Source: a virus
Reading direction: 5' to 3' (one strand)
Length of the DNA: 36,029 nucleotides
Virus record (IMG/VR): IMGVR_UViG_3300029267_002726
Coordinates: 1-36,029 of that record
Shown here: piece after piece, positions 4,641 through 30,239 of the stretch
Numbering within the stretch: position 1 is the first letter of the stretch
How the letters are laid out: each line of letters begins with the position of its first letter
The notes under the pieces: model-generated
Told to the model about the DNA's origin: nothing
The model's input: the letters and a program-made list of their open reading frames with translations, nothing else
The model's database searches: none
Position numbers and translations under genes: made by a program

Positions 4641-6252
4641 TTTAACTGACGCTGAATCAGGAACGTGGGGTATGTTCAGCGGATGGACAAATGGCGACAA
4701 CCCATCCGCCGAAACTGATTACTTCATTCAGGGAAATGGGTGCTATTCATCCGACATGGATAGCAAGTCTGGCATGTCATCCGGCGGGTTCGATGCCGGT
4801 TCTGACCAAAGCGGTTCATTCAACACGGGGGATTGCGTCTTTATCTGGCATGTACTGTTGCCCGGAAATGCCATGGATACATATGTCAATGGAGGACTCC
4901 GTGCTGTAATTGGCGCTGATCTGAATAATTACACATGGTGGCCGGTTGGTGGAAAAGATAAGGGCAGAAATCCATATGGCGGGTGGCAATGTTATGCGGT
5001 TGATCCAACGAATGTAAATGGAACGGCAGTTGGCAGCGGGCACGGCGGGAGCTACCGATGGTTTGGTGCTGCGGCATCTGCGCTTGTGGCAATAAAAAAG
5101 GGGTCACCGCACGGCTGGGACGCTATGCGATATGGCCGTGGAGAAATCAAGGTAATGGGCGGCACAGATTCATCTGCCGATCATTGCACTTTTGTCGGCA
5201 TGGCTGCAGCAAATGATAGTCAGAATAATAAGTGGGGATTATTTCAGGAGCAGGGCGGAGCTTACTTGTGGAAAGGGTTGATGTCAATCGGAGCTATCGG
5301 AGACAGTTCAACAGGGACAGTACCGGTAGATTTCTATGATTCAAACAGGGTTATCTTCATAGATGATACTCCAGTGACATATCCTGATTTCAATAAAATC
5401 GAAATAAACGATGAGGATTCAATCGTAACATGGATTTCGATATCATTCATTGCGCTCGGAACTTATGCACCGGGCAATTTTGAAGTCGTTGACAATGCTG
5501 ATGTCAATCTTGAAGGATGTTCATTTACTGATATGGGAACATTCATCTTCAAGTCAAACAGCTCAGTTTTAAATTGCATTTTTCGCGGATGTAATCAAAT
5601 TACTGCAAATGGTGCTGATATGACCGGAACAAAGATTTTAATTCCGAACATATCTGAAGAAGACAGCTCCTCAGCATCGCCGGAAACTGCAGCCCTGATA
5701 TGGAATGTGGCTACAAATCCTGACGGGTATCTTGACAATATGACATTCAGCATTGGAGATGAGCCGCACCATGCCATCGAATTCGGGACACTTTCTCCGA
5801 CTTCGATGACGCTCAGGGGAATGACAACAATAGGATTCAGCGCGTCAAACAATGCAGAAGGTTCGACATTTCATATTAAACGCACAAGCGGGACGGTAAC
5901 AATCAATGTAGTCGGTGGAACCGGGAACTTTACATACAAATCTGAAGGTGCCACTGTGGTTATAAATACGGGGAAAACGTTAACTCTAAGAGGAATTGAA
6001 TATGGATCAGAAGTGACAATCGTCAAAACGGGGCAGGACAGTTCTGCAGCTGTCGTGCACCATGAAGAAACTATCGACAGCACCGGGGAAACGGTATATT
6101 CGTATGATGCGGGGATGCAGGGAGAGGGCGTTGACATCTTAATTATGAACTTAGATTTCGAGCCGTTCCTAATGGAAAATTATATCCTGCCAACGTCGAA
6201 TACAGAATTGCCTATATCTCAGGTCGCAGACAGAGTTTACGCAAACCCGTAA
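4606..6252 (+). CDS. Large virion-associated protein with beta-helix-like region
   Basis: 548 residues. The N-terminal part (ETDYFIQGNGC, then WQCYAVDP, WDAMRYGRGEI) and the middle (VPVDFYDSNRVIFIDDTP, then FTDMGTFIFKSNSSVLNCIFRGCNQ) resemble a widespread phage structural protein whose middle forms short beta-helical rungs. The C-terminus (GVDILIMNLDFEPF) is the usual ending. AGGAAAATAA precedes ATG 4606. It carries four copies of the acidic-Ser-Ser motif (DSSA 5167, DSST 5302, DSSS 5662, DSSA 6037), more than any other protein here. No catalytic motif is seen. The role is probably a decoration, fibre or adhesion component rather than an enzyme; the exact virion position is unknown. Confidence 0.65.
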   Translation: MTAPAYTTDLTDLTDAESGTWGMFSGWTNGDNPSAETDYFIQGNGCYSSDMDSKSGMSSGGFDAGSDQSGSFNTGDCVFIWHVLLPGNAMDTYVNGGLRAVIGADLNNYTWWPVGGKDKGRNPYGGWQCYAVDPTNVNGTAVGSGHGGSYRWFGAAASALVAIKKGSPHGWDAMRYGRGEIKVMGGTDSSADHCTFVGMAAANDSQNNKWGLFQEQGGAYLWKGLMSIGAIGDSSTGTVPVDFYDSNRVIFIDDTPVTYPDFNKIEINDEDSIVTWISISFIALGTYAPGNFEVVDNADVNLEGCSFTDMGTFIFKSNSSVLNCIFRGCNQITANGADMTGTKILIPNISEEDSSSASPETAALIWNVATNPDGYLDNMTFSIGDEPHHAIEFGTLSPTSMTLRGMTTIGFSASNNAEGSTFHIKRTSGTVTINVVGGTGNFTYKSEGATVVINTGKTLTLRGIEYGSEVTIVKTGQDSSAAVVHHEETIDSTGETVYSYDAGMQGEGVDILIMNLDFEPFLMENYILPTSNTELPISQVADRVYANP

Positions 6253-6263
6253 AAGGAGGAAAC
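6252..6263 (+). promoter_or_regulatory. Strong ribosome binding site, shared 12-base leader (copy 1)
   Basis: AAAGGAGGAAAC lies 1 base before the ATG of the 526-residue virion protein, with GGAGG 5 bases from the start. The identical 12 bases occur before the tail tube gene and before the 134-residue decoration-like gene, suggesting that these three are the most heavily translated virion products. Confidence 0.8.
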
Positions 6264-6264
6264 C

Positions 6265-7845
6265 ATGTCAAAAATTGTAGATCCGGATCAGTTGAACCAG
6301 GCAACTGAGGTAACGATCGACACAACCAACAAAGTTATCGAACTTTCGATAGCCGGAAACCTGGACAACAATTCTCCGGGTAAGACATCCGGAGTGACGA
6401 TGCAGGCTCTGTATTCGTTCCTCAAAGAGGAGTGGCAATCGGATGCATCGTTGAACAAGTTTAAATTTCCACTGAAAGCCCTCACGAAATTTAAATTCGA
6501 TTTTCAAAACGACTGGGGACCGAGCGAGGATTCTTCAAGCGGCGACACAAGGCATCTGATCAGAGATGCTGGCTGGAAGGAAACAGACGACAAAGAATTC
6601 GCCTGCATAATCTCACTTGGTGACATTGATAACCCGGCTGCCGACCAGGCTTACTACCAGCAGGTTGCAGGATTCGATCAGACAATCACGGACTTCGATA
6701 AAACCGGTGAATTGAACGAAGCCATTATGACATATGACGGCACATCGGTTGACTACAGAGATTTTCTCAAGATATTCATCCGGGAGCAGGGCAAGACATA
6801 TCTTGAAGGCAATCTCATTGTGGATCAGGGCTGGGCAAGCATTGAATATGATGCTTACCGTATGCCGCTTTATAATGAGTCAGACCCAAACATATCCACG
6901 GCCGACGCAACAATCGATTCAGACACTCCGTTTACGAATATGACTCTGGACTTCCTTGTCGGAGATTTATTTGAAACATGGAACGGGTCAGAATCTTATG
7001 TCGCAAATAATGTAGTCCAAGGAAGTGACGGCAGGTGGTATAGGGCTGTGTCATCTTCAACCGGTTCCGATCCCACCGGGTCGTCAGCCGGTCCGCCCCC
7101 TGCAGACTGGGAGGTTTATCCAGGTGAACGGCTTATTGGCTCGGATTACTATGCGTTCAACAGAATCATCGATGCTGGCGGAGAAGACAGTGCAGGTGCA
7201 GGGACGCTTCAGGAAATTTACGAATGGGCGCAGCGAATACTAAGGAAATCAACTGACGTCAATGATGATGTGAACGGAGACAGCTACGGAACTGTCAAGG
7301 GTCAGCTTGCAAAGGATCTCCTCTCATTTGTCGGCAGTACACTGGTAACGCAACCCGGTGTGTTCATTGATAATTACAATATCAATGATCAGAACGACAT
7401 GGAGTTCTACGACATTACGGTTGACGGCGACGGGCTTGACACAGAAGATATTCCAGTCACTTCAACCAAACGGACGTTCCCATTCGTGGCTGCCGGTACG
7501 ATGGTATTCTCATCTAACTTGGTTGCTGATTCGGATGCAAAATACTGGATGTATTTTGACAATGCAGGCGGGAACCAGTTCGATACGGCGAACGCAATTC
7601 TGGTTGACGATAATAATGGAGATGACATCACCGGCAATATCACACAGCAGAATATTACGTTCGACTTTGACTATACGAACAACGAGCAGGGCGGCAGGAC
7701 AAAGGGGACAGATGCCTCTGTATGGGTCGTTGCAATGGGCCTTGATGATGCTGAATGGGTTGCGGCATCGTTTACAATTACTCAGGCTACTGGACTCAGC
7801 TTCCCGGTCAATGCTGCTGATGAAAGGAATTATAGTAATCCCTAA
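6265..7845 (+). CDS. Large virion structural protein (LNKF.FP N-terminal domain)
   Basis: A 526-residue beta-rich protein with an exceptionally strong ribosome site. The N-terminal region has SDASLNKFKFPLKAL followed by NDWG and RDAGW, which matches the N-terminal domain of the protein at 8185 (SDPTLNKFNFPVRAI, LDYGW); the two are paralogous there. The middle contains a carbohydrate-binding-like segment (YVANNVVQGSDGRWYRAV, then PPPADWE) like the short Trp-rich modules of phage fibres and chitinase-type binding domains. The C-terminus is a plain beta domain. One strict acidic-Ser-Ser motif (DSSS 6529) sits in the loop before RHLIRDAGW, with EDSAGAG near 7191. No enzymatic motif is visible. 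Expression strength suggests a multicopy virion component. Confidence 0.65.
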   Translation: MSKIVDPDQLNQATEVTIDTTNKVIELSIAGNLDNNSPGKTSGVTMQALYSFLKEEWQSDASLNKFKFPLKALTKFKFDFQNDWGPSEDSSSGDTRHLIRDAGWKETDDKEFACIISLGDIDNPAADQAYYQQVAGFDQTITDFDKTGELNEAIMTYDGTSVDYRDFLKIFIREQGKTYLEGNLIVDQGWASIEYDAYRMPLYNESDPNISTADATIDSDTPFTNMTLDFLVGDLFETWNGSESYVANNVVQGSDGRWYRAVSSSTGSDPTGSSAGPPPADWEVYPGERLIGSDYYAFNRIIDAGGEDSAGAGTLQEIYEWAQRILRKSTDVNDDVNGDSYGTVKGQLAKDLLSFVGSTLVTQPGVFIDNYNINDQNDMEFYDITVDGDGLDTEDIPVTSTKRTFPFVAAGTMVFSSNLVADSDAKYWMYFDNAGGNQFDTANAILVDDNNGDDITGNITQQNITFDFDYTNNEQGGRTKGTDASVWVVAMGLDDAEWVAASFTITQATGLSFPVNAADERNYSNP

Positions 7846-8201
7846 TGAAAATATCTGACCTGCCAAGACGGAAAGTTAGGTACTGGCTTTTTCGATTCAG
7901 GAACGAAGTCATTGAGGGTGTGTCATCAAATGGCGCGCCGCCCGGATTGAAAAAGCACTTTGAAAATCTGCCTCAATTTACGGGATGGGAAGACTTCGGG
8001 GTGAGATGGGACTTACCTCACCTCGAAGACTGTTCCCATGGCGGGTGGTACAAGGTCGGAGAGTCATGCTCATGCGCCAATAAAAAAGTTCCACTGATAT
8101 GTTCGCCGATCAGGCGATCGATATGGGGCGAATGGCGCAGGACAATCAAAAACGAAGCACCAGTATTACCGGTAAAGGTGATAAATGGCAGCGAAAGTTA
8201 A
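7845..8201 (+). CDS. Small conserved-looking protein of unknown function
   Basis: 118 residues beginning in a TAATG overlap with the upstream gene and ending 17 bases inside the next, so it is a genuine operon member. It is basic at the N-terminus (KISDLPRRKVRYWLFRFRNEV) and has three Cys residues in a short stretch (CSHGGWYKVGESCSCANKK), perhaps a metal site or disulfides. FTGWEDFGVRWDLP and SIWGEWRRTI are Trp-rich. I do not recognise a family. Its position between two large paralogous virion proteins suggests an accessory or assembly role. Confidence 0.6.
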   Translation: MKISDLPRRKVRYWLFRFRNEVIEGVSSNGAPPGLKKHFENLPQFTGWEDFGVRWDLPHLEDCSHGGWYKVGESCSCANKKVPLICSPIRRSIWGEWRRTIKNEAPVLPVKVINGSES

Positions 8202-9606
8202 TTTCAATTATACTTCAAAAATAATTGAAGTAACTCAGACTCCAGAGCTTGAAGTAGATTCAGGAGAGTCGTCCGCTACCGGTCAATGGGTTGTCGATAT
8301 TGATGTAAAAATTGATATCTACTCAGATGGTAAAGAAGACTGGCTGTCTGATCCGACGTTAAATAAGTTTAATTTTCCGGTCCGGGCAATCGGCGGTCAG
8401 GAGCTCCCAGGAGAAAAGAAACTCGGCACTACATTCTTTCTGGATTACGGCTGGCGCATCCGCCCGTATGAAGGCAACCATGTGCTCAGGGTAAACGGCA
8501 ACTTATACACCGAAGAAGGTGACAGTCCATTCGTGCAGACAATTGGATCGTACAACGTCATGGTTATCAACACGGTTTCCTCCCTTGTCGATTCTACGGT
8601 CCAGCAGCTTGCGGAGATTGAATTCGCTTCATTCAGCGGCGGCGTGACGGTAGATGTGATCAATGGTTATCCCGGGACTGAATATGGAGACAAGCCCGTA
8701 GGAACAACAATCTATCCGTCAAACAACATGACGGATGCTTTATCCATAGCGGTTTCAAGGGGGCTCACGACATTTTATATCATTGGAGACATCACCCTCG
8801 ATTCAGGGACAGACTTTCTTGAAATGAATTTCGTCGGAGAATCCCCGACAAAATCAACCATTACGATAGACGCAGATGCGGACGTAGAAAACTGTGAATT
8901 CTATGATGCTGAAATTCAGGGGACGCTTGATGGCAATAACGTTCTTCAGAATTGTATGATTGGAACCCTCAACTATGTAAATGGATTTGTAAGACAATGT
9001 ATTCTGACAACAGGAACAATTACATTAGGCGGGAGCGAAGAGGCCCATTTTCTGGACTGCTGGTCAGGTGTGGTTGGAACGGCCACCCCAACCATAGATA
9101 TGGGCGGGTCGGGCCAGGATCTCGGGCTCAGAAATTACAACGGGGGCATTCAAATAAACAACCTCACGGGAAGCAGCAAGGCAAACGTGGATCTTAACGC
9201 CGGACATATAATTCTTGACAGCACCGTGTCAAGCGGTGAAGTCGTCGTTCGCGGTGTCGGTCAGATCACAGACAACAGCACCGGAGATGCATCGGTTAAT
9301 ATAGACGGGCTCTTAAATCCGGATGTTATCACGACAAGAGTGTGGGACGAAGCCACGGCCGACAGGCAGACACCAGGCACGATCGGCGGTGATTATTACA
9401 ACCTTCTTCAGGGCTTTTCTTGGATGAACAAAATAATTACCAATAAAAAAGTCCTCGCAAAGACAGGAGATGTTTGGGAGCTGATCATTTATGACGATGA
9501 TAACGTCACTCCGATTTTGAGGAAAGACATCAAGGACAAGGATGGAAACAATATCACTGACCTCGAAGCCGGTACGCTGGCACAGGAGCTAAAATCAGAT
9601 GTTTAA
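8185..9606 (+). CDS. Virion protein with LNKF.FP domain and beta-helix rungs
   Basis: 473 residues. Residues 1-130 form a conserved phage domain (KEDWLSDPTLNKFNFPVRAI, GTTFFLDYGWRIRP, LRVNGNLYTEEG, then NTVSSLVDS) shared in part with the 6265 protein. Residues 170-360 form a ladder of short rungs (NCEFYDAEI, NNVLQNCMIG, HFLDCWSG) consistent with a right-handed parallel beta-helix. The C-terminus ends with a conserved strand hairpin (DDDNVTPILRKDIKDKDG). One ESSA motif occurs near the start (8266). Protein families of this type are found in late operons of many environmental phages and are likely fibres or capsid or tail decorations. No enzyme motif is seen, so the role is inferred from fold and position. 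Confidence 0.65.
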   Translation: MAAKVNFNYTSKIIEVTQTPELEVDSGESSATGQWVVDIDVKIDIYSDGKEDWLSDPTLNKFNFPVRAIGGQELPGEKKLGTTFFLDYGWRIRPYEGNHVLRVNGNLYTEEGDSPFVQTIGSYNVMVINTVSSLVDSTVQQLAEIEFASFSGGVTVDVINGYPGTEYGDKPVGTTIYPSNNMTDALSIAVSRGLTTFYIIGDITLDSGTDFLEMNFVGESPTKSTITIDADADVENCEFYDAEIQGTLDGNNVLQNCMIGTLNYVNGFVRQCILTTGTITLGGSEEAHFLDCWSGVVGTATPTIDMGGSGQDLGLRNYNGGIQINNLTGSSKANVDLNAGHIILDSTVSSGEVVVRGVGQITDNSTGDASVNIDGLLNPDVITTRVWDEATADRQTPGTIGGDYYNLLQGFSWMNKIITNKKVLAKTGDVWELIIYDDDNVTPILRKDIKDKDGNNITDLEAGTLAQELKSDV

Positions 9607-9772
9607 CATTCAGCCAGGGACAGGGCTCGGGTTTGCGGCTTCAAAAGAAATTGCACTTGGGCTCGGGACTCCGTTTGAAATTGGAGAAGTCATTGTTGAA
9701 GTGTTTGAGAGTGCGTATAGTTTTCTAAAATCGTTTATCATAAAAGGATTTGCACGTGGTAGAGTCAGCTAA
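9599..9772 (+). CDS. Small 57-residue phage protein (IQPGTGLGF motif)
   Basis: A short ORF whose ATG overlaps the 3' end of the upstream virion gene. It begins MFNIQPGTGLGFAASKEIAL and ends FARGRVS. The glycine-rich IQPGTGLGF opening followed by ALGLG resembles a small protein commonly found at this place in phage late operons. The C-terminal half is an amphipathic or hydrophobic strand or helix (VIVEVFESAYSFLKSFIIKGF). It fills what would otherwise be a gene-free gap and overlaps the next gene by 17 bases. Function unknown, probably a minor virion component. Confidence 0.55.
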   Translation: MFNIQPGTGLGFAASKEIALGLGTPFEIGEVIVEVFESAYSFLKSFIIKGFARGRVS

Positions 9773-9938
9773 ATCGATAATAAGGGAAGAGGAAACCTGC
9801 GGGTTTGTGGAAGAAGTTCAGGTTACGGGTTTTTTAAAGCAAGAAGTCACATGTGACTTCTTGCTTCAGAAAAGAACCGTAGCTTTCCTTGTCCCAAAAG
9901 AAATCACAGGCTTTTCAAGAGAGGAAACAGATGGCTGA
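9756..9938 (+). CDS. 60-residue protein of 9-residue beta repeats
   Basis: From GTG 9756 (AAAAGGA 7 bases upstream; TTG 9750 is also in frame), almost the whole protein is five imperfect 9-residue units: EETCGFVEE, VQVTGFLKQ, EVTCDFLLQ, KRTVAFLVP, KEITGFSRE. Each has a beta-branched/Thr-Cys pair and an aromatic Phe two residues later. This pattern suggests a short beta-solenoid or an intermolecular beta-sheet protein, like other small LTG-type repeat proteins in phage late operons. The third unit is encoded by a perfect DNA palindrome. It ends by overlapping the ATG of the next gene (GATGGCTGA). Role unknown; a virion glue or fibre-attachment protein is plausible. Confidence 0.55.
   Translation: MVESAKSIIREEETCGFVEEVQVTGFLKQEVTCDFLLQKRTVAFLVPKEITGFSREETDG
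9837..9866. repeat. 30-bp perfect palindrome inside a coding region
   Basis: The arms AAGCAAGAAGTCACA and its exact reverse complement meet with no spacer. In RNA this would be a long hairpin with a 4-base loop (CATG at the tip opened). It has no U-tract, so it is not an intrinsic terminator. It encodes the third 9-residue repeat of the small protein around it. It may be a protein-binding site, an mRNA processing or stability hairpin, or a by-product of repeat expansion. Confidence 0.85.
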
Positions 9939-10320
9939 TATAACTAAACAATCATACGAGGAATTTCGGATTCATGCCGATTTCGGACTTAACATGGAAG
10001 CCGGAGAATATCTACTCCCGTTGGATTCTTCAGAAGATTCATCAGCTGCAGAAGTGTGCACCGTGAAATGCTGGGATGTCAGTGGGAAGGATGTGACGAA
10101 TGAAATGCTGGACTACGACACGCTGACAATCATTGATGGAAACCCCACGGACGATGAAGACAATCCCGGTTCCGGCATGACGAACGCTGCTTTGCAGGTA
10201 TTAATCAGGGGCGGGACTGAAGCATTGTCAAATTATAAATACACATTCTACGGGGTTACAACTCTTGATCCGCCGAATAAATGGGAGCTGGATATTTCTA
10301 TGAGGGTACGCGAAAGATAA
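9931..10320 (+). CDS. Small virion protein (ADxTKQ...TEALSxYKxTF family-like)
   Basis: I start at ATG 9931, preceded by GAGGAAAC, rather than at the upstream in-frame TTG 9889, whose extra residues belong to the overlapping gene's territory. 129 residues: an N-terminal MADITKQSYEEFRIHADFG, a DVSGKDVTNEML core, then RGGTEALSNYKYTFYGVTT and a C-terminal NKWELDISMRVRE. This resembles a small all-beta phage protein usually found near head-tail connector genes. It has an acidic-Ser-rich loop with two back-to-back motif copies (DSSE then DSSA at 10024-10047), where shorter loops would be expected. A further acidic insertion (PTDDEDNPGSG) lies in the middle. No enzyme motif. Confidence 0.6.
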   Translation: MADITKQSYEEFRIHADFGLNMEAGEYLLPLDSSEDSSAAEVCTVKCWDVSGKDVTNEMLDYDTLTIIDGNPTDDEDNPGSGMTNAALQVLIRGGTEALSNYKYTFYGVTTLDPPNKWELDISMRVRER

Positions 10321-10326
10321 TTAGTT

Positions 10327-10355
10327 TTGACAAAATACAACTTCCCATGTATAAT
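10327..10355 (+). promoter_or_regulatory. Perfect sigma70-type promoter for the HNH gene
   Basis: TTGACA (10327-10332), a 17-base spacer and TATAAT (10350-10355) form a consensus promoter in the only gap between the upstream virion gene and the endonuclease. Start of transcription would be near 10362. Late genes here otherwise appear to be read as long operons, so this lets the endonuclease gene be transcribed independently by host polymerase. Confidence 0.85.
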
Positions 10356-10373
10356 AAATCAAAAAACATGGGA
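10343..10373 (+). promoter_or_regulatory. Hairpin covering the HNH ribosome site, with the -10 box in its loop
   Basis: TCCCATG (10343-10349) can pair with CATGGGA (10367-10373). The right arm contains the GGGA of the ribosome site GGGAGG (10370-10375), which is 6 bases from the HNH ATG. The loop holds the TATAAT. RNA started at the internal promoter (about 10362) would lack the left arm and keep the ribosome site free, whereas read-through RNA from upstream would fold and hide it. Confidence 0.65.
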
Positions 10374-10381
10374 GGCTAAAA

Positions 10382-11101
10382 ATGAAAAAATGCAAAGTCG
10401 AAGGGTGTAACAGAGATCATGCAGCAAAAGGTTATTGCAAGTCGCATTACAGACAATGGAAACAGTGGGGCTTTACAAAAAAAATCAGAGAAACAATTAC
10501 TGGGCAAAGTGGATGTAAAGTTAATGAATGCAAAAGAAAACATTGGGCAAAAGGATATTGCAGAAAACACTATGATCAACATACCCGTTCCGGGTATACA
10601 CGAAAATATTTCGTCACAGATCCAAATGAATTTGTAGAAAAAAAAGACACATATGAAATTATACTATGCGACAGGAATGGAAAAGAAAAAGCTCGGGCAA
10701 TTATTGATAAAGATAGTTATGAAAAGTGCAAAAATATAAAATGGGGACTTACTCCAGGAAGATGTCAATATGCAAAAAATTCAAAAGTAGGATATCTTCA
10801 CCATTTTATATGGGGCAAAAAAGAATCAATAGATCATATTAACAGGATCAAATTAGATTGCAGAAAATCAAATTTAAGAAAAGCAACTCCGAAACAAAAT
10901 GCTCAAAACAGAGGGTTAATGTCAAACAATACTTCAGGAGCAACTGGCGTAAGATGGAGTGAACGACTGAATAAATGGCGAGCACAAATATATCTTAATG
11001 GCAAGAATAGACACCTTGGATTGTTCATTGATAAAAATGATGCAATCACGGCTTATCAAAATGCCGCAGATAAACACTTTGGACAATACAGGAGGAAATA
11101 A
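10382..11101 (+). CDS. HNH endonuclease with AP2 DNA-binding domain and two zinc-finger-like repeats
   Basis: 239 residues with clear modules. Two N-terminal Cys-His repeats (C4-x4-C9-x9-C19-x2-H22, and C45-x4-C50-x9-C60-x2-H63, each with KGYC.(S/K)HY) look like small zinc fingers. An HNH core follows (LHH at 139-141, IDHINR at 150-155, SNLR at 163-166), then NAQN. A C-terminal AP2-type domain (SGATGVRW...KWRAQIYLNGKNRHLGLF, about 185-235) would recognise DNA. This is the layout of free-standing phage homing endonucleases. The gene is AT-rich relative to its neighbours, has its own promoter, and ends in a TAATG overlap, with AGGAGG in its 3' end serving the next gene. All this fits a mobile gene inserted into the virion operon. 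Confidence 0.88.
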   Translation: MKKCKVEGCNRDHAAKGYCKSHYRQWKQWGFTKKIRETITGQSGCKVNECKRKHWAKGYCRKHYDQHTRSGYTRKYFVTDPNEFVEKKDTYEIILCDRNGKEKARAIIDKDSYEKCKNIKWGLTPGRCQYAKNSKVGYLHHFIWGKKESIDHINRIKLDCRKSNLRKATPKQNAQNRGLMSNNTSGATGVRWSERLNKWRAQIYLNGKNRHLGLFIDKNDAITAYQNAADKHFGQYRRK

Positions 11102-11616: not shown

Positions 11617-11617
11617 C

Positions 11618-12791: not shown

Positions 12792-12794
12792 ACA

Positions 12795-12818
12795 ATCGTG
12801 GAAATAAATTTCCACGAT
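12795..12818 (+). promoter_or_regulatory. 11-bp hairpin in the tail tube gene leader
   Basis: ATCGTGGAAAT and its exact reverse complement flank a 2-base spacer, so a 10-11 bp stem forms just after the terminator gene and 7 bases upstream of the ribosome-site block. There is no U-tract, so it is not a rho-independent terminator. An mRNA stability or processing hairpin for the abundant tail tube message is likely. Confidence 0.75.
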
Positions 12819-12841: not shown

Positions 12842-13783
12842 ATGAGTGATGCTAACCGAGTAGGACTTCGTTACATCGAAGAAACAACCTGGAATTCACT
12901 GCCAGCAGCACCGGCCATGACCCCGATTCGGTACACAGGTGAATCCATGATTCCGTCAGTGGAGAATATTGTATCCGCTGAAATTCGGGATGACCGGATG
13001 ATAACGGATCTCATCCAGGTCTCACGGTCAAACACCGGCGGGTTCGAAATTGAGCTTTCCGCTGGCACATTCGACGAGCTGATTGCAGGTGCCCTGTTTT
13101 CTGACTGGGTAGGCGACAGTTCTTCATCCGGAGATATAATCAGAAATGGCGTAACGCGCCATTCATTCAGCATTGAAAAAGCCATGCTGGACATTGATGA
13201 ATATTTCCTCTTTACCGGCATGATGGTCAATTCAATGACATGGACGCTTGCTACCAGCTCCATTGCGGTCGGATCTTTCGACATGCTCGGAAGCGGTGCG
13301 ACGCTCGGGCAAAGTTCAAATGCGAACAGCGTTAACGCTGCGTCCACCACTGCGGTTCTGAACTGTATGGGCAACGTTGCATCATTGAAGGAAGGCTCTT
13401 CGCTCACCACCATGGCAGGAATTTACGTGCAGGAACTTTCATTCACCATTGCCAATAACCTGCGTCCGGTACATCAGATCGGATCGAATACCATTGCTGA
13501 AATTGCGGTAGGTAAATGCGACATTACGGGGACGCTTAACGCCTATTTCACCAATGACCGTTTGTTCGATCAGTTCCTCGCCGGAACTGCCACACAGATC
13601 GAATTTAAAATCATGGATGGTGCGGGCAATTATTACACTGTCCTGTTCCCTGAAGTTAAATTCGAGACTGAAAGTGTGGTGGCTCCCGGGCAGGACCAGG
13701 ATGTCATTGAGAACTTGACATGGCGTGCATTACGGGATGCGACTGAAGATGCCATGATCAAGATAACTCGAAACTTAGTCTAA
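12842..13783 (+). CDS. Major tail tube protein
   Basis: 313 residues. It opens RVGLRYIEETTWNSLPAAPAMTPIRYTGESM, then IRDDRMITDLIQVSRSNTGGFEIELSAGTFDELI. This is the typical start of the phage tail tube family, with the ETTWG-like motif and the R(M)x(D/T)Lx(Q)VS strand. The remainder is all-beta and ends WRALRD...MIKITRNLV. It would polymerise into hexameric rings around the tape measure. It has the shared strong ribosome site and hairpins before and after the gene, consistent with the most abundant tail protein. It carries one acidic-Ser-Ser loop (GDSSSSGD, 13112-13135) after ALFSDW, in a region expected to face outward, though this is not proven. Confidence 0.85.
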   Translation: MSDANRVGLRYIEETTWNSLPAAPAMTPIRYTGESMIPSVENIVSAEIRDDRMITDLIQVSRSNTGGFEIELSAGTFDELIAGALFSDWVGDSSSSGDIIRNGVTRHSFSIEKAMLDIDEYFLFTGMMVNSMTWTLATSSIAVGSFDMLGSGATLGQSSNANSVNAASTTAVLNCMGNVASLKEGSSLTTMAGIYVQELSFTIANNLRPVHQIGSNTIAEIAVGKCDITGTLNAYFTNDRLFDQFLAGTATQIEFKIMDGAGNYYTVLFPEVKFETESVVAPGQDQDVIENLTWRALRDATEDAMIKITRNLV

Positions 13784-13898: not shown

Positions 13899-14456
13899 AT
13901 GAAAATAAAAGAAACTGTGAGGCATGTGTCCATAGAGGAAGCAGTTGCCGTAATGGCAAATGACAACATCGATTTTATCGAAATGCATAAGGGATATTTT
14001 ATGGCAGCAGATCTTCCATTCAGGCCGCCGCTTCATGTCGGAGCCATTATTGTGTGGCCGCCTGTCGACATTCATCCGTCCGCAAAAATCGGAGAGGGTG
14101 TTGTCATCGGCAGGTACACGAACATATGCGGACCAATAGAAATCGGGGCACATACAAGAATTCAGGGGTTTTGTTTCATCCCTGACAACATTAAAATCGG
14201 AGAACGGGTATTCATCGGGCCAAACGTAACATTCACGAATGTCAAGCGTCCGAGGATACGTGAGAACGCAATGAAAATCAGGGACGGCGTTACCATTGTT
14301 GAAGATGATGCCAATATTGGTGCCGGGGTGGTCATCTGCCCCGGCATCAAAATCGGAGCACGCTCATTAATCGGTGCAGGCGCAGTCGTCACAAAAGATG
14401 TGCCGCCGGATACGATCGTAATCGGTTGTCCTGCAGTAAACTATTCAGGGAAATGA
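13899..14456 (+). CDS. Hexapeptide-repeat (left-handed beta-helix) acyltransferase moron
   Basis: 185 residues. After an 80-residue N-terminal part comes a ladder of hexapeptide repeats (IHPSAKIGEGVVIGRYTNI, IEIGAHTRI, IKIGERVFIGPNVTFTN, ANIGAGVVICPGIKIGARSLIGAGAVVTKDVPPDTIVIGCPA). This is the trimeric left-handed beta-helix acetyl- or acyltransferase fold used on sugars in surface polysaccharide pathways. The catalytic His usual in sugar acetyltransferases is not obvious in the standard position. It sits between the tail tube and tail chaperone genes, where no enzyme is normally needed, so it is a moron. Hairpins on both sides and a separate leader support an inserted unit. It may acylate the sugars made by the upstream enzymes, or a host glycan. 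Confidence 0.82.
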   Translation: MKIKETVRHVSIEEAVAVMANDNIDFIEMHKGYFMAADLPFRPPLHVGAIIVWPPVDIHPSAKIGEGVVIGRYTNICGPIEIGAHTRIQGFCFIPDNIKIGERVFIGPNVTFTNVKRPRIRENAMKIRDGVTIVEDDANIGAGVVICPGIKIGARSLIGAGAVVTKDVPPDTIVIGCPAVNYSGK

Positions 14457-20826: not shown

Positions 20827-23800
20827 TGGCTATAACCCTTGATTCCACACTTCAGTCAGCTCAGGATGGAGCTTCTCATCGTCCAACCGTAAGTTTGTTA
20901 TCAGAACCAATGCAAGCACAAGTGCCTTTATATGGAAACCACTTTAATACAGACTCTACTCCAGAGGGAAACCAAGAGCTTTTATTAACATCTGAAGGCA
21001 GATTAATAAACGTATATATTGATGACGACTGGAGCAATGACAACCTATATTTCTATTATACAGATACGGATAGAATTCAATGGGCACCTGCTGTCTATCT
21101 TGAAATAAACAATATAAACCATGCTTCAATCTGTGAATTATCTAACGGAAATATTGGGGTTGTTGTAGTACAAAGAGACTATGATGTCGGGTATCTTATA
21201 GTTTCACCTACTGGGACTATAATCACGTCCTATACAGAAATATTTAGCGGGGGGGCGTGGACTGGCGGAATATCCGTTATTAATCTGCTTGGGGATTCAT
21301 CCGCAGGTGGATACATGATTGTATACGCAGAAGGAACTGCAGAACCACCTGGAGACACAGACACATATTCCCTTCAAAGAAGGACTTCATCAAACTTCAC
21401 ATCTTGGAGCTCTGCTTCCGAAATAGCAACAACTGGATTGAGCGATACCAAATACAAAGACAACCCAAATCTATTTCAGCACTCCAACGGTCGATTATTC
21501 CTTCATTTTGATTATATGGATGATATCCAAAATAATGTTGAGTTAAGGAATATATATGGGCAATATTCCGATGACAACGGGATAACTTGGAGCAATACTG
21601 TAAAGGTAACCGATTACGATTCATTCGGCGATCAAGGGATTATTCCATCAGTTGCAGAAAAGGAAGATGGAACTTTATATATCATCCATCAAGAAACCAA
21701 CAGAGTAAAACACTATGATACAAATTTGGATGGATATCCGGATACCGAAGATTTCGACGGAGGACAAATACAATATGATAGTGTAGAAAAAAAACTAATT
21801 TGCAATAACATTGACAAGTATGGAGATGGTTTTGAAAATGTGGTTTTAATAGATACCGAAACGGACACATATATCAAATTTTACGACGGCAACACAAGCC
21901 CTTCGCTACCAGCTGGCGGTGCAGGTGAACTCCAGGCAATGAGACGTGATTGGCCGTCATGGCCCTTTTCCATTCTGATTAACGGCAATCAAATCCATGT
22001 AATTAACTGGGAAACAGAGGAAATTAGACTTTATGTTCCAGAAAGCCGAGACTTCCAGCCACCAGTGTCAAATTTTTACATGGGCCCATGGGCATACTGG
22101 TATTACTACCAACACATATACGCAGTTTATAGGCAGGTCGGAGATGAAAGAAGGCTATACCTGGCTGGTACCAGTTCAGGAGAACTCGGTTGGGGAGGGC
22201 ATCTTGTCATTGGATATCTGAATCTTGATCAAACAGCTGATCCAGTTACAGGACAATATACATTCACTCAATTAGCACATATCACTAATGCCGAAGAGCC
22301 CCTCTTAGACGGCAACTGGATCGCACAGTTTGAATGGGTGCCAGAAGTCAGCCGGTGGGTCGTCGTGCTTGCTTGCGAACTTTTTATCCTTAATGAAGAT
22401 TGCGAGGTTATCTATAGATGCAACCAAGATAACATTCCAGGGTGGCCTGTAGGTGCCCATTTTCTTGCTCCAAAATCAATACGAGAAGCTGTATATATGG
22501 CAACTGCCGGGACTGCGGGTAGTGTTTATTTTTCATTCGACTATAACAGTGATTATCCAGACCGGAGAGGCATATGTCGATGGGATATTGCAAGCAACAA
22601 CTGCACTTACTATCAGCCGAATTGGTTTACATGTACTGGGGAATGCGGAATGCGCAATCTGTTCAACATGGGTGACGGACGGATTATGATGTCCGTTAGA
22701 GCCCCAGACGATGGAGGGTCTTGCGACAGGGCAGGGATCGCTATTTTAGACACAAATGGACATGGCTGGACATTCTATAGTGAAAACAACGTACCTGGGA
22801 TGTTTAACCCATATCCATTCTATGACTATCCACAATGCGATGATTGGGAATGGGATGAGGGGGCCGGATATTTGGCATATGATGCGGCTACTCAAACTAT
22901 TTTTGCATCATACAGGGGCAATTCTAAGTGGCTTGGAGATTCATCAGCAGGCGTTATTGTATTCTCAGAGCTGGGAGCATACTCAACAATTAGATATACA
23001 AGCATAGCAGATGTTGAAAGCACTCCAGCTTATGGAGAATTTAGTGATTTTACTATAAACAATTTTGAATATAACGGATCTATGGTTGTTGATGAAGATG
23101 GCGTTGCTTGGACCACATGGGATCATATGGATTCTATCAGCGAAAATTCTTTGATATGGGACACTACAGTATCAGACAAGTATGTAGAAGATTTCCTCGT
23201 TGACGGATCTCAAGTTGAAATTACGTGGGAAATAGACAAGCCTACAAGTCTTAAATTTGAACTAAGTCATGGACAATATTTTGATTCAACGAATTTATTG
23301 TCAACATGGTCTGTGTATTTCAAAATGGGACGCATAATAACAATCGAACTTGGAGAAATTATATCAGACACAGAATATCTTCAAGCACAGGGTGTGTTTT
23401 TTATAAAAGAGTCTACTATATCCCTTTCACAAGGATATCCTACAATCAAAGTAACAGCAGAGGACATGCGCTCGATGTGGGACGAAACTCACATTGTCGC
23501 CAGCGAATATTTTAGCAATTTAACACCGAAAACTGTTACAGAAAATCTTCTAACGGACCATGGAGACTTAACTGCTCAAGATTTTTCCATACCTACATAT
23601 GTGCAAACGCATAACCTCTATCATCAATTTATAGATATCAATCTTTCTGATGCGATTCAGCTTATAATGGATCATTTTGGGTATTTTGGATTTGTGAACG
23701 TTAATGGACAATTTCAGCCAAGACAAATTAATTTTTCAGGATCTCCAATTCATACGTACAGCGATTCAACAAAAATAATAGAATATACACCAGACAATAA

Positions 23801-24626: not shown

Positions 24627-24627
24627 T

Positions 24628-26238
24628 ATGAAAACATATGGAAGAAGATTTGTAAGAAGATCGATTAGCCGGGCACAAAATCTTAGAACTGAAACCCGTG
24701 ATGGTGTCTTGTGGACTATCGACTGGGCAAATCGTATCTGCAACATAAAGATCCAGGGAAGCAATGAGCTTATTACTGCCCACTTTCCTCAGAATGAAGC
24801 TAAAAAGATGTCATACATGCGGGAAGGCAACGCTGTGCGCGTGGTTCACCGTGGAGGTATTCGCGGGTACTTGGAGGTAACAGGTCATGGTATGGCCATC
24901 CCAACTCCAGTTGCAGGAGACTTCCACCCAGACGTATCAGACCTTCCAGATGGCGTAAGTGAAGGTTGCCAGATTATACCAACTAAGCCTCCATCTCTCT
25001 GTGTAACCATACTTGATGGATACTATAGGCTCAACGGAACCCTATACTCATTGTCCGGCGGTGCCTCTGGGTATGAAGCCATGGCTGATGATTCCGGCGT
25101 TACCATGCACCCGGCATACCCGCCAATGGACATGGGTGATACTGGCGACTATGTAACTATGACTGATGACTCATCATCTGGTGATGTAGTTATGAACAGT
25201 GTATTTCCACTTATGACATTAGGAGATCCGATTGATGATTACTGCCTTGATCCAATGCCCACTGGGAACAAATTCCGATATGATGCGTTTGTTGTAGGAG
25301 AAGATGGCATCATTGATTATATTGTTGGAAGTGAAGCATCAAGCAATCCGTCAAAACCAGAGATTCCCGACAATCACGTACTAATAGGCCAGTACATACT
25401 TCTCTGGACCGGTCTAACTGAAATAACTGGCAGGAATATAGGTATGGAATGGGAAGAGCCTTATGCTTCTGGCGTGTTATTTACATGTGTTGACGAGCTT
25501 GAATGGAATGAAAGTAATCCCAGCCCACAAGCAAATGTAACCCTTACTGTCATAAATCAATATGAATGGACTATCAGCGGAAATTACAACATAGTACTTG
25601 CAATGCCAAGAGGAACTGGCTCAATTTGGTCATTACAATCTGGGTGGGATGACGCTCAGGTCTCCCAAGAAATAACCGGAACAAGCTACACATTTGTGTA
25701 TCAAAGGTTGCAATGGGTCGAGCTTGGAGAATTGCAAATTCAATTAACGGAAACTTCCCCGTTTTTTGTTGGGACTGTCTATGACCAGAGTGGTATGATT
25801 TTAGCAACAAGCTACCACAGGCTGGTGTTATTAAGTGTCGGTGGCCTCGAAATTGAAGGCGGGCAAGTAAACGACATACTTTTGCCAGAAAGACCTCAAT
25901 ATATTCTTCCAGATTCCGAAGGAAATGCGGACGTTGAAAGCTGGGATGACGGATATCAAATCATTATAGAAGCCAGTCAGGATATAAGCATTAATTTTCC
26001 ATACACAGCTCCTGCAGACAGGGCAAAAATAATTCTATTAATCGAGCAGGATGAAACTGGCGGATGGGTTCCTACACTGCCGATGAGCGACATAGAAATA
26101 GCTGAAGAAGTTCTTGAAGATTCGTCTGGGCTAGCAATCAATACAGATGCTAATAGCAGAACTTATCTTGGATTTATTTATCATGAGTCTGACAGCAAAT
26201 ACGATCTTGTGGCTAAAGCAACCATACTAAAAAGCTAG
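24628..26238 (+). CDS. Baseplate-like protein with OB-type N-terminal domain
   Basis: 536 residues. The N-terminus (RNLRTETRDGVLWTIDWANRICNIKIQGSNELITAHFP..., then GNAVRVVHRGGIRGYLEVTGHG) resembles the OB-fold spike or baseplate domains of phage tails. The middle holds a short duplicated segment: MADDSGVTMHPAYPPMDMGD is followed by MTDDSSSGDVVMNSVFPLMTLGD, where the second copy is longer by about three residues at the DSS site. The C-terminal region (AKIILLIEQDETGGWVPTLP, then GLAINTDANSRTYLGFIYH) is like the small beta domain that ends many phage fibres. Motifs occur at 25168 (DSSS) and 26119 (DSSG). It is likely a tip component between the hub and the lectin-like proteins. Confidence 0.6.
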   Translation: MKTYGRRFVRRSISRAQNLRTETRDGVLWTIDWANRICNIKIQGSNELITAHFPQNEAKKMSYMREGNAVRVVHRGGIRGYLEVTGHGMAIPTPVAGDFHPDVSDLPDGVSEGCQIIPTKPPSLCVTILDGYYRLNGTLYSLSGGASGYEAMADDSGVTMHPAYPPMDMGDTGDYVTMTDDSSSGDVVMNSVFPLMTLGDPIDDYCLDPMPTGNKFRYDAFVVGEDGIIDYIVGSEASSNPSKPEIPDNHVLIGQYILLWTGLTEITGRNIGMEWEEPYASGVLFTCVDELEWNESNPSPQANVTLTVINQYEWTISGNYNIVLAMPRGTGSIWSLQSGWDDAQVSQEITGTSYTFVYQRLQWVELGELQIQLTETSPFFVGTVYDQSGMILATSYHRLVLLSVGGLEIEGGQVNDILLPERPQYILPDSEGNADVESWDDGYQIIIEASQDISINFPYTAPADRAKIILLIEQDETGGWVPTLPMSDIEIAEEVLEDSSGLAINTDANSRTYLGFIYHESDSKYDLVAKATILKS

Positions 26239-26250
26239 GAAAAATTACCA

Positions 26251-27345
26251 ATGACTCTTTTATTTTTTGATGGATTCGAAACCTATAATGACAGTACCGA
26301 TATGCAGTTAAACGGGTACGGCTGTGTTGGGAATTGTTCAAAAACAACGATTAGAACTGCTTCCCCGTCTCCCAGATCTGGATTGGCTTATGCAAACTTC
26401 TATGATTATCTTCAGGGTATTGACCGGCCATACGCTGCAAATGTATTGGATCAAGCAGATGAAACGTTGGTAATAGTTGGCCTTGCTGGTAGAATGGAAG
26501 ATCCAACTGGAACTTATTCTTCTGGGAGACCCTTTATCACATTGCGTGGCGGCACAGGAGGTGGGTCTAACATCATTTCATTCTTTGTAGATGGAACAGC
26601 GATCAGGTGCTATTATCAAACTTCCACAACTCTACTTTTTACAACATCATCAGGCGTAATCGGCAGTGCTGAATGGGCATACTATGAATTTAAAGTATAT
26701 CATCATGCAACTGACGGATATGTGGAATTAAGACGTAATGGCGTGACTATAGGTTCTGTTGGGATTGATAGTTCTAGTGCGTCGGTTAACACTGGCGCAA
26801 GCTCTCACAGTCTTCGTCTCATGGGAATAAACGACAATAATGCCCTGCGATGTGATGATCTGTATATTTGCAACGGGGATGGAAGCAAAAACAATGATTT
26901 TCTTGGAGACTGTATAGTTGAATGCCTTCGTCCAAATGGAGATGGCACACACAAGGATTTTACGCCATACCCTGGAGACAGTTCATCTGCTGTTGCCAAC
27001 TTTGAAAATGTTGATGATTCAACGGGCCCAGATGAAGATACTACTTACAATGAAGCTGACACTCTAGGAGATAAAGACTCATATACATTGGAGGATCTAT
27101 CACCCGGTGGAGAAATATACGGAGTGAAAAGACAAGCTGTTGTCAGGACCTCGGATCCTGGTCTCCGAAAAATAAAAATTTTATCACGCATCAATTTAAC
27201 CGATTACCTTGGAGATGAGGAAAACCTTGGAATGGGTTGGCAATATTATTTAGACCTGGATGAAGATAATCCAGACGCAAGCAGTGGTGAATGGTCTGAA
27301 TCCGATATTAATTCAATGGAAATAGGGGTAGAGGTAACGAGCTAA
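26251..27345 (+). CDS. Concanavalin/LamG-like virion lectin (copy 1)
   Basis: 364 residues. LFFDGFETYNDSTDMQLNGY opens a jelly-roll typical of LamG/concanavalin-like phage proteins: EWAYYEFKVYHHATDGYVELRRNGVTIGSVG, then LRLMGINDNNALRCDDLYICNGDG. The C-terminus holds the usual DCIVECLRPNGDGTHKDFTPYPG...DTTYNEADTLGDKDSYTLEDL...SDINSMEIGVEV segment. It ends in a TAATG overlap with a clear paralogue. Carbohydrate binding is likely; this could be a receptor-recognition or virion decoration protein. Motifs: DSSS at 26767, and DSSS at 26977 in the loop between the two conserved C-terminal blocks. Confidence 0.72.
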   Translation: MTLLFFDGFETYNDSTDMQLNGYGCVGNCSKTTIRTASPSPRSGLAYANFYDYLQGIDRPYAANVLDQADETLVIVGLAGRMEDPTGTYSSGRPFITLRGGTGGGSNIISFFVDGTAIRCYYQTSTTLLFTTSSGVIGSAEWAYYEFKVYHHATDGYVELRRNGVTIGSVGIDSSSASVNTGASSHSLRLMGINDNNALRCDDLYICNGDGSKNNDFLGDCIVECLRPNGDGTHKDFTPYPGDSSSAVANFENVDDSTGPDEDTTYNEADTLGDKDSYTLEDLSPGGEIYGVKRQAVVRTSDPGLRKIKILSRINLTDYLGDEENLGMGWQYYLDLDEDNPDASSGEWSESDINSMEIGVEVTS

Positions 27346-28379
27346 TGGCAATATTAATGATGGACAGCTTTGAAAGGTATGCTGGCAATGCAGATCTAAA
27401 CAAAGCAGGATGGTCTTCCACATATTTTGATATAAACACGAGTACCTATCGAACTGGATCTCGCGCAATGCACTCATATGACAGGAACAGATATGCCACT
27501 TATTTGTCAGATTGGAACGTCCAGACAGCTTGCTTTACTTATGCTATTTACTGTAACAACCAATCGACAGCGTTTACCAGTTCTTATTTTCAATTCAGCT
27601 TTAGAGATCCAACCAATAATTGGGTGTGCACTTTCTTTTTTATGACTGATGGCTCTATAAGGGTGTATCGAGGACGTAATAGTGTATTACTCGGTCAAAC
27701 TGTTGGTGCCATTATTGTCCCAAATCAATGGATATCTCTTTCATTCAAAGTTTATGTACATGATACAAATGGAACTGTTGATATTTACAAAAATGGGGTT
27801 AACGTTTTAAGCCTTAACGGAGTAGACACTAAATATAGCAGTACATACAGCACGATCTCTGGTTTTGTCATAGGTTCCTTTAATGACAACATCCATGGCT
27901 ATTATGATGATATGTATGTTACAGATGGCGACGTCTTCGGCGATCTTGAAATACCGAAATTGTCCCCAAATGGTATTGGAACCAATTCAGATTTTGAACC
28001 ACATCCGGGAGAAAGTTCATCGGTGGATAACTGGGAAAATGCAAACGATTCACCACCTGACGACGCAACCTATAATTTTAGTGACACGCCTAACGACAAA
28101 GATTCTTATGCCATGGAAAATTTGGTGTCCACAGGTCAAACGATACATGCAATAAAAAATAGCGTCGTGGCAGAAAAAAACGATGCTGGGACAAGGATCG
28201 GACAGGTGCTAACACTGCTTAGTGGATCTGAATATCTTGGAGATCAATTTGGTATCCCATATGGAGACTATGAATACTTTGAAAAAATATATAACTTTGA
28301 TCCGGGAGAAAGTAGCAGTGCGGCTTTCGATGAATCAGACATCAACGGCATGGAAGTTGGGATGAAATTGGTGGCATGA
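27345..28379 (+). CDS. Concanavalin/LamG-like virion lectin (copy 2)
   Basis: 344 residues, paralogous to the upstream gene along its full length: LMMDSFERYAGNADLNKAGW, WISLSFKVYVHDTNGTVDIYKNGVNVLSLNG, YYDDMYVTDGDVFGDLEIPKLSPNGIG, DATYNFSDTPNDKDSYAMENL and SDINGMEVGMKL. It arose by tandem duplication and has diverged strongly, perhaps to recognise another sugar. It carries ESSS at 28011, at the place equivalent to DSSS in copy 1, and ESSS at 28308, where copy 1 has a shorter SSGE. It ends in an ATGA overlap with a third lectin-like gene. Confidence 0.72.
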   Translation: MAILMMDSFERYAGNADLNKAGWSSTYFDINTSTYRTGSRAMHSYDRNRYATYLSDWNVQTACFTYAIYCNNQSTAFTSSYFQFSFRDPTNNWVCTFFFMTDGSIRVYRGRNSVLLGQTVGAIIVPNQWISLSFKVYVHDTNGTVDIYKNGVNVLSLNGVDTKYSSTYSTISGFVIGSFNDNIHGYYDDMYVTDGDVFGDLEIPKLSPNGIGTNSDFEPHPGESSSVDNWENANDSPPDDATYNFSDTPNDKDSYAMENLVSTGQTIHAIKNSVVAEKNDAGTRIGQVLTLLSGSEYLGDQFGIPYGDYEYFEKIYNFDPGESSSAAFDESDINGMEVGMKLVA

Positions 28380-29284
28380 CGGATTATTCGACAGATTTTA
28401 CCGAATCAAGCGGACTCGATTCGTGGACAGAACAATGGCACACTGGTGTTGCTGCCCCAAGCATTGTTGCAGATACCACTGGAGAATCCTATGGCGATGA
28501 ATGCCTAAAAATACAGCATTCATCCAGCCAGCAGTATTCGTTATCATGGGACGATGCTGGCAGCAATGAAGATGCACAATTAATAGCAAGATTCCGTGTG
28601 CTTAATGATACATATTCATCTTTCAGGGTTCTGTTAAGAGGATCTGGCAATGATACAAGCGAAGAAGCGTACCATGTAGACATACGATATAAAGATCAAG
28701 TGATGCGGATTAGCAAATTCGTTGCCGGTTCTGAATCAACCATTGATTCTGTAAATGTTGAATTTGATCTTAACGAATGGCTGTGGGTAAGGTTTTCTGT
28801 AAAAGATTCTGGCGACAGCAGTGGTGCTGGACTCACTGACTTAAAAGCAAAATTTTGGAATGATCAGAATGAGGAAGAACCGGCAAGCTGGGACATAGAA
28901 ACAACCGATTCATCAATTGCGTCTGCGGGCTGGGGGGGTGTAGGTTCGTGGGACGGCAATTTTGAAGTTGATTATTTTGCTTTAAGTACAGGGGCAGCAG
29001 GTTCACCATCATTGCCAATCAAAGAAAATTACGCACGGTTAATAGATGTATATTCTGAAGCACTTAGGACGCCAGCACCTCCGAACATACAAATTACGCA
29101 GGCAAACATAGAGGTCTTGCGATACGGAGATTCTAATATACAGGTTACACAAATGGCGGTTGAAACATTACGCGGCCCATACCCAAATGTTCAAGTAACA
29201 CAGGTGGGTGTCGAAGTTTTAAGGCAATACATAGAACCAGAAGCCGGAAGAGCTGGAGCTGGCAATTTCTTTTTACTATTTTAA
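28376..29284 (+). CDS. Third lectin-fold virion protein with a C-terminal triple repeat
   Basis: 302 residues. Residues 1-210 are a jelly-roll (DFTESSGLDSWTEQW, CLKIQHSSSQQYSLSWDDAG, AQLIARFRVL, WLWVRFSV, then LKAKFWNDQNEEEPASW and VDYFALST), like LamG-type domains. The C-terminus has three 17-20-residue units, NIQITQANIEVLR, NIQVTQMAVETLR and NVQVTQVGVEVLR, followed by a hydrophobic GNFFLLF end. Such VxVTQxxVEVLR tails are common in environmental phage structural proteins and probably mediate assembly. Motifs: ESSG 28403 and DSSG 28814, with DSSI nearby. Together with the two preceding genes this makes a battery of three lectin-like proteins. Confidence 0.65.
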   Translation: MTDYSTDFTESSGLDSWTEQWHTGVAAPSIVADTTGESYGDECLKIQHSSSQQYSLSWDDAGSNEDAQLIARFRVLNDTYSSFRVLLRGSGNDTSEEAYHVDIRYKDQVMRISKFVAGSESTIDSVNVEFDLNEWLWVRFSVKDSGDSSGAGLTDLKAKFWNDQNEEEPASWDIETTDSSIASAGWGGVGSWDGNFEVDYFALSTGAAGSPSLPIKENYARLIDVYSEALRTPAPPNIQITQANIEVLRYGDSNIQVTQMAVETLRGPYPNVQVTQVGVEVLRQYIEPEAGRAGAGNFFLLF

Positions 29285-29302
29285 AAAAACGGGAGGTAAT
29301 AA

Positions 29303-29560
29303 ATGAATGAAACGTTATTGAAAATCCTTGATGAGCTAAAAGAAATAAAAACGTATATGGAATACAACAATAGGTTGCTCGAAGGAATGATAATAAAGAA
29401 AGATGATATGCGCTATCAAAAAGAGGAGGCTTATCAAAAAATAAAAAAAATGACCAATAGCATAAAAGCTATACAAGGAATGAATACCCCTCAAACACAA
29501 ATGGTCATTGATCAATTGATGAGCATTATCCCAGGAATGCAGGAGAAGAAAAATGGCTGA
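29303..29560 (+). CDS. Small helical protein, unknown
   Basis: 85 residues after a strong GGGAGG ribosome site. It is almost entirely helical and charged (ETLLKILDELKEIKTYMEYNNRLLEGM, then YQKEEAYQKIKKM), probably a short coiled coil. The C-terminus (NTPQTQMVIDQLMSIIPGMQ) could pack against another protein. No family recognised. It overlaps the next gene by 8 bases. A chaperone or linker for the adhesion proteins is possible. Confidence 0.6.
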   Translation: MNETLLKILDELKEIKTYMEYNNRLLEGMIIKKDDMRYQKEEAYQKIKKMTNSIKAIQGMNTPQTQMVIDQLMSIIPGMQEKKNG

Positions 29561-29822
29561 TTTATTTACAAGGTATGTTGACGGAACGACTCAGTACAAA
29601 GCATCCCACATGAACGCCCCGCTAATTGAACTGGAAACCGAAATCAATACGGACAAAGCCGCGATTGACGCTATCGAGGTTGATATCAACCAAACGGGAA
29701 TAGCTACAGGTGCAGGGAAATTTGTCATGGTAAACGAAGGCGGAACCGCTTTTGTTTTTAAAGATATAGTTTGCAGCGGCGGAGAAGTCGTCGTATGCAG
29801 TGGAAACGTTGTGTTTAACTAA
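29553..29822 (+). CDS. Small fibre-like protein
   Basis: 89 residues: MADLFTRYVDGTTQYKASHMNAPLIELETEINTD... is a start typical of phage fibre or appendage proteins, in which helix-forming IDAIEVDIN-type residues precede a beta part (GKFVMVNEGGTAFVFKDI). The C-terminus VCSGGEVVVCSGNVVFN has two Cys eight residues apart in parallel strands. It is short, and may be a fibre tip or connector. The shared AAAGGAGGAAAC leader starts at the last base of its stop codon. Confidence 0.55.
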   Translation: MADLFTRYVDGTTQYKASHMNAPLIELETEINTDKAAIDAIEVDINQTGIATGAGKFVMVNEGGTAFVFKDIVCSGGEVVVCSGNVVFN

Positions 29823-29833
29823 AAGGAGGAAAC
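29822..29833 (+). promoter_or_regulatory. Strong ribosome binding site, shared 12-base leader (copy 3)
   Basis: AAAGGAGGAAAC with GGAGG 5 bases before the ATG at 29835; the third identical copy of this leader in the window. Confidence 0.8.
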
Positions 29834-29834
29834 A

Positions 29835-30239
29835 ATGGGTGAATTAAACGAACTGGCACTATCCTTAGTGTCAACAACCACGGTGGCTTTAAACAGCACC
29901 GGGCAAACAACGCTTTACACGGTGCCGACGGGGAAAACTTTCATCCCGGTATTTGCCGTAATCCGGGTAGGCGCGGACGCCGGGGCTTCGGTCATCACGA
30001 TCGGGCAGAACGGAGCTGCTGACGACTTCCTCGACTTCCAGGATCTTGGGAATCTTGATGCAGCAAATGACATGGCGATTCTCAGGCCGTCAATTCCGGA
30101 TTTTGTGGACTCATCGGCGGACAAGGCAAACGTCGAGTGCTTAAAAGCATATGCGGCCGCAACCGTAATCGAAGTAGATGTCATAACTGGAAGCGGCGGA
30201 GCTACCAACTACATTGATCTGTTCGGATACCTCGTGTAG
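29835..30239 (+). CDS. Putative virion decoration / jelly-roll protein
   Basis: 134 residues, all-beta: STTTVALNSTGQTTLYTVPTGKTFIPVFAVIRVGA, VITIGQNGAADDFLDFQ, then AATVIEVDVITGSGGATNYIDLFGYLV. The TLYTVPTGKTFIP motif is recurrent in small phage virion decoration or tail proteins. It uses the strong shared ribosome site and its composition is markedly more GC-rich than the preceding lectin genes, so it may come from a different source. It carries one motif, DSSA 30108, in an acidic loop. Confidence 0.62.
   Translation: MGELNELALSLVSTTTVALNSTGQTTLYTVPTGKTFIPVFAVIRVGADAGASVITIGQNGAADDFLDFQDLGNLDAANDMAILRPSIPDFVDSSADKANVECLKAYAAATVIEVDVITGSGGATNYIDLFGYLV

Follow-up and report, generated by a model that had tools for sequence, protein, structure and literature searches.

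A recurrent acidic-Ser-Ser motif at loop insertions of probable virion proteins in an uncultured virus: a candidate acceptor for serine O-glycosylation

Virion glycosylation has been reported in a few phages. Mycobacteriophages glycosylate their capsid and tail tube using their own transferases (PMC12363180). In bacteria, Maf enzymes glycosylate flagellin with no known sequon (PMC11339370). Here we describe a 36,029-base stretch from an uncultured virus record (IMG/VR IMGVR_UViG_3300029267_002726, positions 1 to 36,029; hereafter the window), in which the short motif [DE]-S-S-[SAGT] occurs 19 times in 11 open reading frames (ORFs), most of which probably encode virion proteins. Comparison with homologues indicates that this motif was put repeatedly into loops in one phage lineage. 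Upstream of the first motif carrier lies a cassette of transferase genes (428-4143), and we put at roughly 0.4 the probability that the motif serves as the acceptor in a sequence-specific serine modification, with O-glycosylation by phage-encoded transferases, and sulfate and acetyl groups on the sugar, as its likeliest form.

The motif had been noticed in a first-pass annotation made from the sequence alone, and the coordinates it gave for all 19 sites proved right. Its estimate that only one or two sites would be expected also agreed with per-protein, composition-matched shuffling of the 11 carriers, which gave 1.5. When shuffling was extended to the 22 proteins of the late cluster, 2.06 ± 1.40 sites were expected and none of 2000 shuffles reached 19; shuffles that kept dipeptides gave 5.1 ± 2.0. 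Since the pattern had been picked after the sequence was seen, we ran an exhaustive scan of all four-position class patterns over 31 genome sets. In the window the top rank went to [DE]SS[SAGT] (-log10 p 10.1), and in a sister contig (G002; L005, L057) to DSS[SAGT] (-log10 p 10.2). The top patterns of the 29 other sets scored 3.8-8.4. By single tripeptides the window was not extreme, DSS scoring 5.7 and other loci similar or higher values, some of them from repetitive proteins; the argument therefore rests on the four-residue class pattern and on the sister contig. In the latter, the compared head-to-tube proteins are 96-98% identical to those of the window, and most of the distal tail proteins share 28-40% identity with their window counterparts, one of them 66%. 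Its diverged tail genes hold seven motif sites where 0.64 would be expected, and none of 5000 shuffles gave as many; four are at or near window positions and three elsewhere. Counts in other related loci were near expectation, a few having two or three against about one. That other genomes also yield high-scoring patterns is what one would predict if the motif were a product of chance or of choosing a pattern after the fact, an explanation that is scarcely credible given that the motif scores highest in the window and sister and recurs in diverged tail genes. Conservation of the eight sites common to window and sister is uninformative, as 0 amino-acid changes were found in 32 codons with about one expected. 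Likewise, the motif is indeed absent from the enzymes, as had been pointed out, and this absence carries no information because only about 0.2 sites would be expected there by composition.

The excess was confined to particular residues. DSS[SAGT] was enriched 12.9-fold over shuffles and ESS[SAGT] 4.2-fold, and the excess was lost on swapping Ser for Thr, or Asp/Glu for Asn or Gly: [DE]ST[SAGT], [DE]TS[SAGT], [DE]TT[SAGT], NSS[SAGT], GSS[SAGT] and [DE]GG[SAGT] all occurred at or below chance, as did [DE]SS followed by residues other than [SAGT]. Two further patterns were raised: [ILVFWYM]SS[SAGT], mildly (9 against 4.6 expected), and SS[SAGT][DE] (9 against 2.0), which overlaps in part with the motif. 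The residue before the motif is Gly at 9 of the 19 sites and Glu at 4, and Ala or Gly frequently follows, in keeping with the original description. The two serines are written with 13 different hexamers using both TCN and AGY codons (mean identity 0.49), so the motif copies do not share the nucleotide sequence that a DNA repeat would leave. Copying of a repeat or mobile micro-insert from one gene to another would account for a similar peptide at many insertions; with mixed serine codons, and no repeat family at motif sites among the 20 largest listed, we consider such copying very improbable. Selection acted at the protein level and was sequence-specific, discriminating Ser from Thr and Asp/Glu from Asn, as the first-pass annotation had argued from its differing codons.

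Pairwise and multiple alignment with homologues placed nearly all of the sites at insertions, a site being counted if it lay within three residues of columns that half or more of the homologues leave as gaps. By this measure 18 of 19 motif sites lie in or beside insertions, against 4.5 ± 1.8 under random placement. The support is strong for the 548-, 526-, 473-, 364- and 344-amino-acid (aa) proteins, with 15-24 homologues, and thin for proteins with 1-4; a direct scan for relatives of the 536-aa and 302-aa proteins found none. In the five well-sampled proteins, 9 of 18 short insertions in the window carry the motif, as do 2 of 5 in the sister; among the 195 insertions of the remaining lineages none does. 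None of the 24 homologues of the 548-aa protein has a motif excess. Had the motif belonged to the ordinary fold, homologues would have been expected to keep it in place; D-S is kept at only two sites, 5167 (DSSN in L039) and 28308 (DDSN or DDSS in relatives), which thus build on an acidic-Ser already present. Counting by eye, we estimate about 13-14 separate gains.

All 19 sites are on the plus strand. Four fall in the beta-rich, probable virion protein of 548 aa (4606-6252, plus strand): DSSA at 5167-5178, where D-S is partly ancestral and one residue is inserted; DSST at 5302-5313, within the insertion AIGDSS; DSSS at 5662-5673, adjoining an 8-aa insertion; and DSSA at 6037-6048, within a 3-aa insertion. 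The AlphaFold model of this protein has a predicted local distance difference test (pLDDT) score of 85, and in this one confident model all four sites are coil (26% of positions expected). No stretches fall below pLDDT 50 other than the loops at the third and fourth sites. Next come DSSS at 6529-6540 in the 526-aa protein, adjoining a 4-aa insertion; ESSA at 8266-8277 in the 473-aa protein, within the 11-aa insertion EVDSGESSATG; and DSSA at 10036-10047 in a 129-aa protein, within a 10-aa insertion relative to a single distant homologue. The tail tube protein has DSSS at 13115-13126 within a 6-aa insertion, filling a gap present in two relatives (L006, L007) and in the solved tube 8xan, and the 1266-aa tail protein has DSSA at 21294-21305 and at 22938-22949, within insertions of 4 and 10 aa. 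Further downstream are DSSS at 25168-25179, where the sister has EEDSSGD at the same place; DSSG at 26119-26130, with a two-residue insertion relative to the sister; DSSS at 26767-26778, adjoining a 4-aa insertion; and DSSS at 26977-26988 and ESSS at 28011-28022, adjoining the insertions PYPGD and PHPG, these two sites being paralogous and therefore not independent events. The remaining sites are ESSS at 28308-28319, with the partly ancestral acidic-Ser and a two-residue insertion; ESSG at 28403-28414, the sole site not near an insertion (one homologue); DSSG at 28814-28825, within a 9-aa insertion (one homologue); and DSSA at 30108-30119, present in the sister and absent in L071.

Sites in coil loops of variable length are also what would be seen if length-tolerant loops of this lineage had simply been filled with soluble, harmless Gly-Asp-Ser-Ser turns that undergo no modification. 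Relatives do favour other peptides, such as DSD at two of the same loops in L031 and T[ILVM][ST]G in L040. On the other hand, Thr, Asn and Gly variants, which would serve as well in turns, are not enriched, and insertions of other lineages resemble those of the window in Asp and Gly content, contain less Ser (9.8% versus 17.6%) and never carry the motif (0/195). We regard such filling as somewhat unlikely, and as the strongest competitor of modification. Even if no modification occurs, convergent gain of one peptide at about a dozen loops within a single lineage, with relatives at chance, would be an unusual evolutionary pattern. In the L031 fragment (4462-8459), Asp-Ser-Asp is itself over-represented, with 11 copies in three proteins.

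The carriers were originally described as virion proteins. Family matches assign such a function to the tail tube (PF18906) and the 1266-aa tail protein, and most of the 11 are probably virion proteins by position. The N-terminal region of the 548-aa protein shows a weak resemblance to the Haloferax tailed virus 1 turret (8qpg; template-modelling score, TM, about 0.2), and a role as head decoration is therefore possible; its fold matches in the PDB were weak (TM about 0.2). A tail tube homologue in L037 (7948-9147) is longer by about 80 residues in the loop that carries GDSSSS in the window, and the tube motif loop therefore probably faces outwards; the tube model itself reached pLDDT 41 on a shallow alignment. 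A 52% relative of the 473-aa protein was found on L086 (JAHWGK010000034.1), a contig binned as a Thermoplasmata archaeon, and an HNH endonuclease-like gene lies among the late genes of the window (10382-11101).

That the sequence is strict, admits Ser alone and was gained repeatedly at loops suggests that something recognizes it. The cassette at 428-4143 supplies candidates, all on the plus strand. It begins with a GT2-like glycosyltransferase (428-1048; PF00535, E-value 3e-6; phrog_14775) and a glycosyltransferase-like protein (957-1568; phrog_26101 and phrog_14179, both glycosyltransferase), the start codons of both being uncertain. These are followed by a putative glycosyltransferase of the sialyltransferase/MptE-like type (1569-2231; phrog_4603, E-value 3e-37; its MptE-like match is below the Pfam cut-off), a 417-aa protein with a sialyltransferase/MptE-like N-terminal domain and a glycosyltransferase-like C-terminal domain (2224-3477; phrog_4603 over residues 9-187, phrog_1962 over residues 207-416), and a sulfotransferase (3478-4143; PF13469, 39.5 bits, above the cut-off). 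The MptE-like/Maf domain matches in two window proteins scored 26.8 and 20.6 bits against a curated cut-off of 34.6. The window encodes its own glycosyltransferases (PF00535 and glycosyltransferase PHROGs), as expected of phage virion glycosylation. A hexapeptide sugar acetyltransferase gene (13899-14456, plus strand; PF00132) adjoins the tail tube gene; it is NeuD/PglB/VioB-like below that model's cut-off, with WlbB and QdtC among its solved matches. Such a gene stands beside the tail tube gene in the window, G001 and G002 and otherwise only in G005, at another place. Among relatives of the tail module it is confined to this lineage, the modules of L006 and L007 lacking it. Whole-record searches detected phrog_4603 in none of 27 related records and found no PF13469 sulfotransferase in the related records, several of which are fragments. 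Similarly, no glycosyltransferase or sulfotransferase family was present in 73 upstream proteins of relatives that keep the gene at 4140-4640 by the 548-aa protein, and a direct scan found no relatives of the 417-aa protein.

Several kinds of recognition could be envisaged. An unmodified loop peptide might be a binding site for another protein, such as a decoration protein, a chaperone or a partner on the host surface, and a short strict sequence shown on many unrelated proteins would suit such a tag; we judge it rather unlikely, having identified no candidate binding partner and found no precedent in the literature searched. A similarly small probability attaches to phosphorylation or direct sulfation of the Ser, carried out by enzymes of the host or of the phage while the glycosyltransferases work on something else, such as host polysaccharide. 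The acidic residue before Ser and the encoded sulfotransferase would fit that scheme; against it, no kinase was recognized among the scanned proteins, and the Bacteroidota-type D[ST][AILVMT] is not enriched in the window (32 observed, 33.9 expected). Use of the Bacteroidota sequon was rejected on that count. Bacteroidota O-glycosylation acts on exported proteins, and phage proteins assemble in the cytoplasm.

Given the enzymes at hand and the phage precedent, Ser O-glycosylation appears to be the most economical reading. The first-pass annotation had offered modification, a loop-insertion habit or a recognition tag; the insertions are now established (18/19 sites; 9/18 insertions against 0/195), and modification is suggested by transferase genes undetected in relatives together with coil placement in one model. 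In our scheme, the acceptor would have been gained as short insertions arose again and again in loops of many late, probably virion, proteins, the phage transferases would glycosylate one or both motif serines, and the sulfotransferase and acetyltransferase would add sulfate and acetyl groups to the sugar. Because the acceptor sits at loops of many such proteins, glycans would stand at many points of the assembled particle, where they may shield or tune its surface. The full version, a phage-encoded Ser O-glycosylation with a strict [DE]-S-S-[S/A/G] sequon spread by loop insertions and yielding a sulfated, acetylated virion glycan coat, is one we hold only tentatively. If true, it would provide a readable sequence signature of virion modification by which glycosylated phages could be recognized, and a portable acceptor tag.

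Several observations weigh against O-glycosylation of the motif. Host polysaccharide might instead be the substrate of the enzymes. With the sister contig beginning within the 548-aa protein, past the cassette region, the association of motif and cassette is drawn from a single lineage; in addition, the 1231-aa tail protein of the sister lacks the motif. In L031, DSD occupies two of the same loops and no cassette was seen in the fragment. Finally, motif counts in L077/G029, L080/G030 and Tetraselmis virus S20 were 2, 3 and 0, no excess despite a like cassette. The proposal that the cassette implies the motif was rejected on these three genomes; a cassette of this type does not imply this acceptor.

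Cassettes of this type recur elsewhere. In unrelated siphophages (L077, L078-L080; NC_020840, 26950-33219), a sialyltransferase-like and glycosyltransferase cassette lies between the head genes and the connector genes. L077-L080 have homologues of the sialyltransferase-like and sulfotransferase genes close to their head genes; in Tetraselmis virus S20, glycosyltransferases and sialyltransferase-like proteins are encoded near head genes and no sulfotransferase was found. These loci resemble the window in having homologous enzymes near head and connector genes and differ from it in showing no motif excess in the sets tested. In Bacteroidota O-glycosylation, D(S/T)(A/I/L/V/M/T), an Asp directly precedes the modified Ser/Thr as in our motif (PMC8550257), the difference being the lack of enrichment of that sequon here. 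Maf acceptors are surface-loop Ser/Thr modified in the cytoplasm, and two window proteins have a weak MptE-like match; the window peptide, however, is strict and uses Ser only, whereas Maf has no known sequon, so a strict peptide would be new (PMC11339370). A further parallel is virion glycosylation in the mycobacteriophages Che8, Corndog and Myrna, which is reported to involve phage-encoded glycosyltransferases and to have capsid and tail proteins as targets (PMC12363180). Unlike those phages, the window spreads a short motif over about 11 proteins by insertion, in company with a sulfotransferase and a sugar acetyltransferase, and its virion modification is a presumed one.

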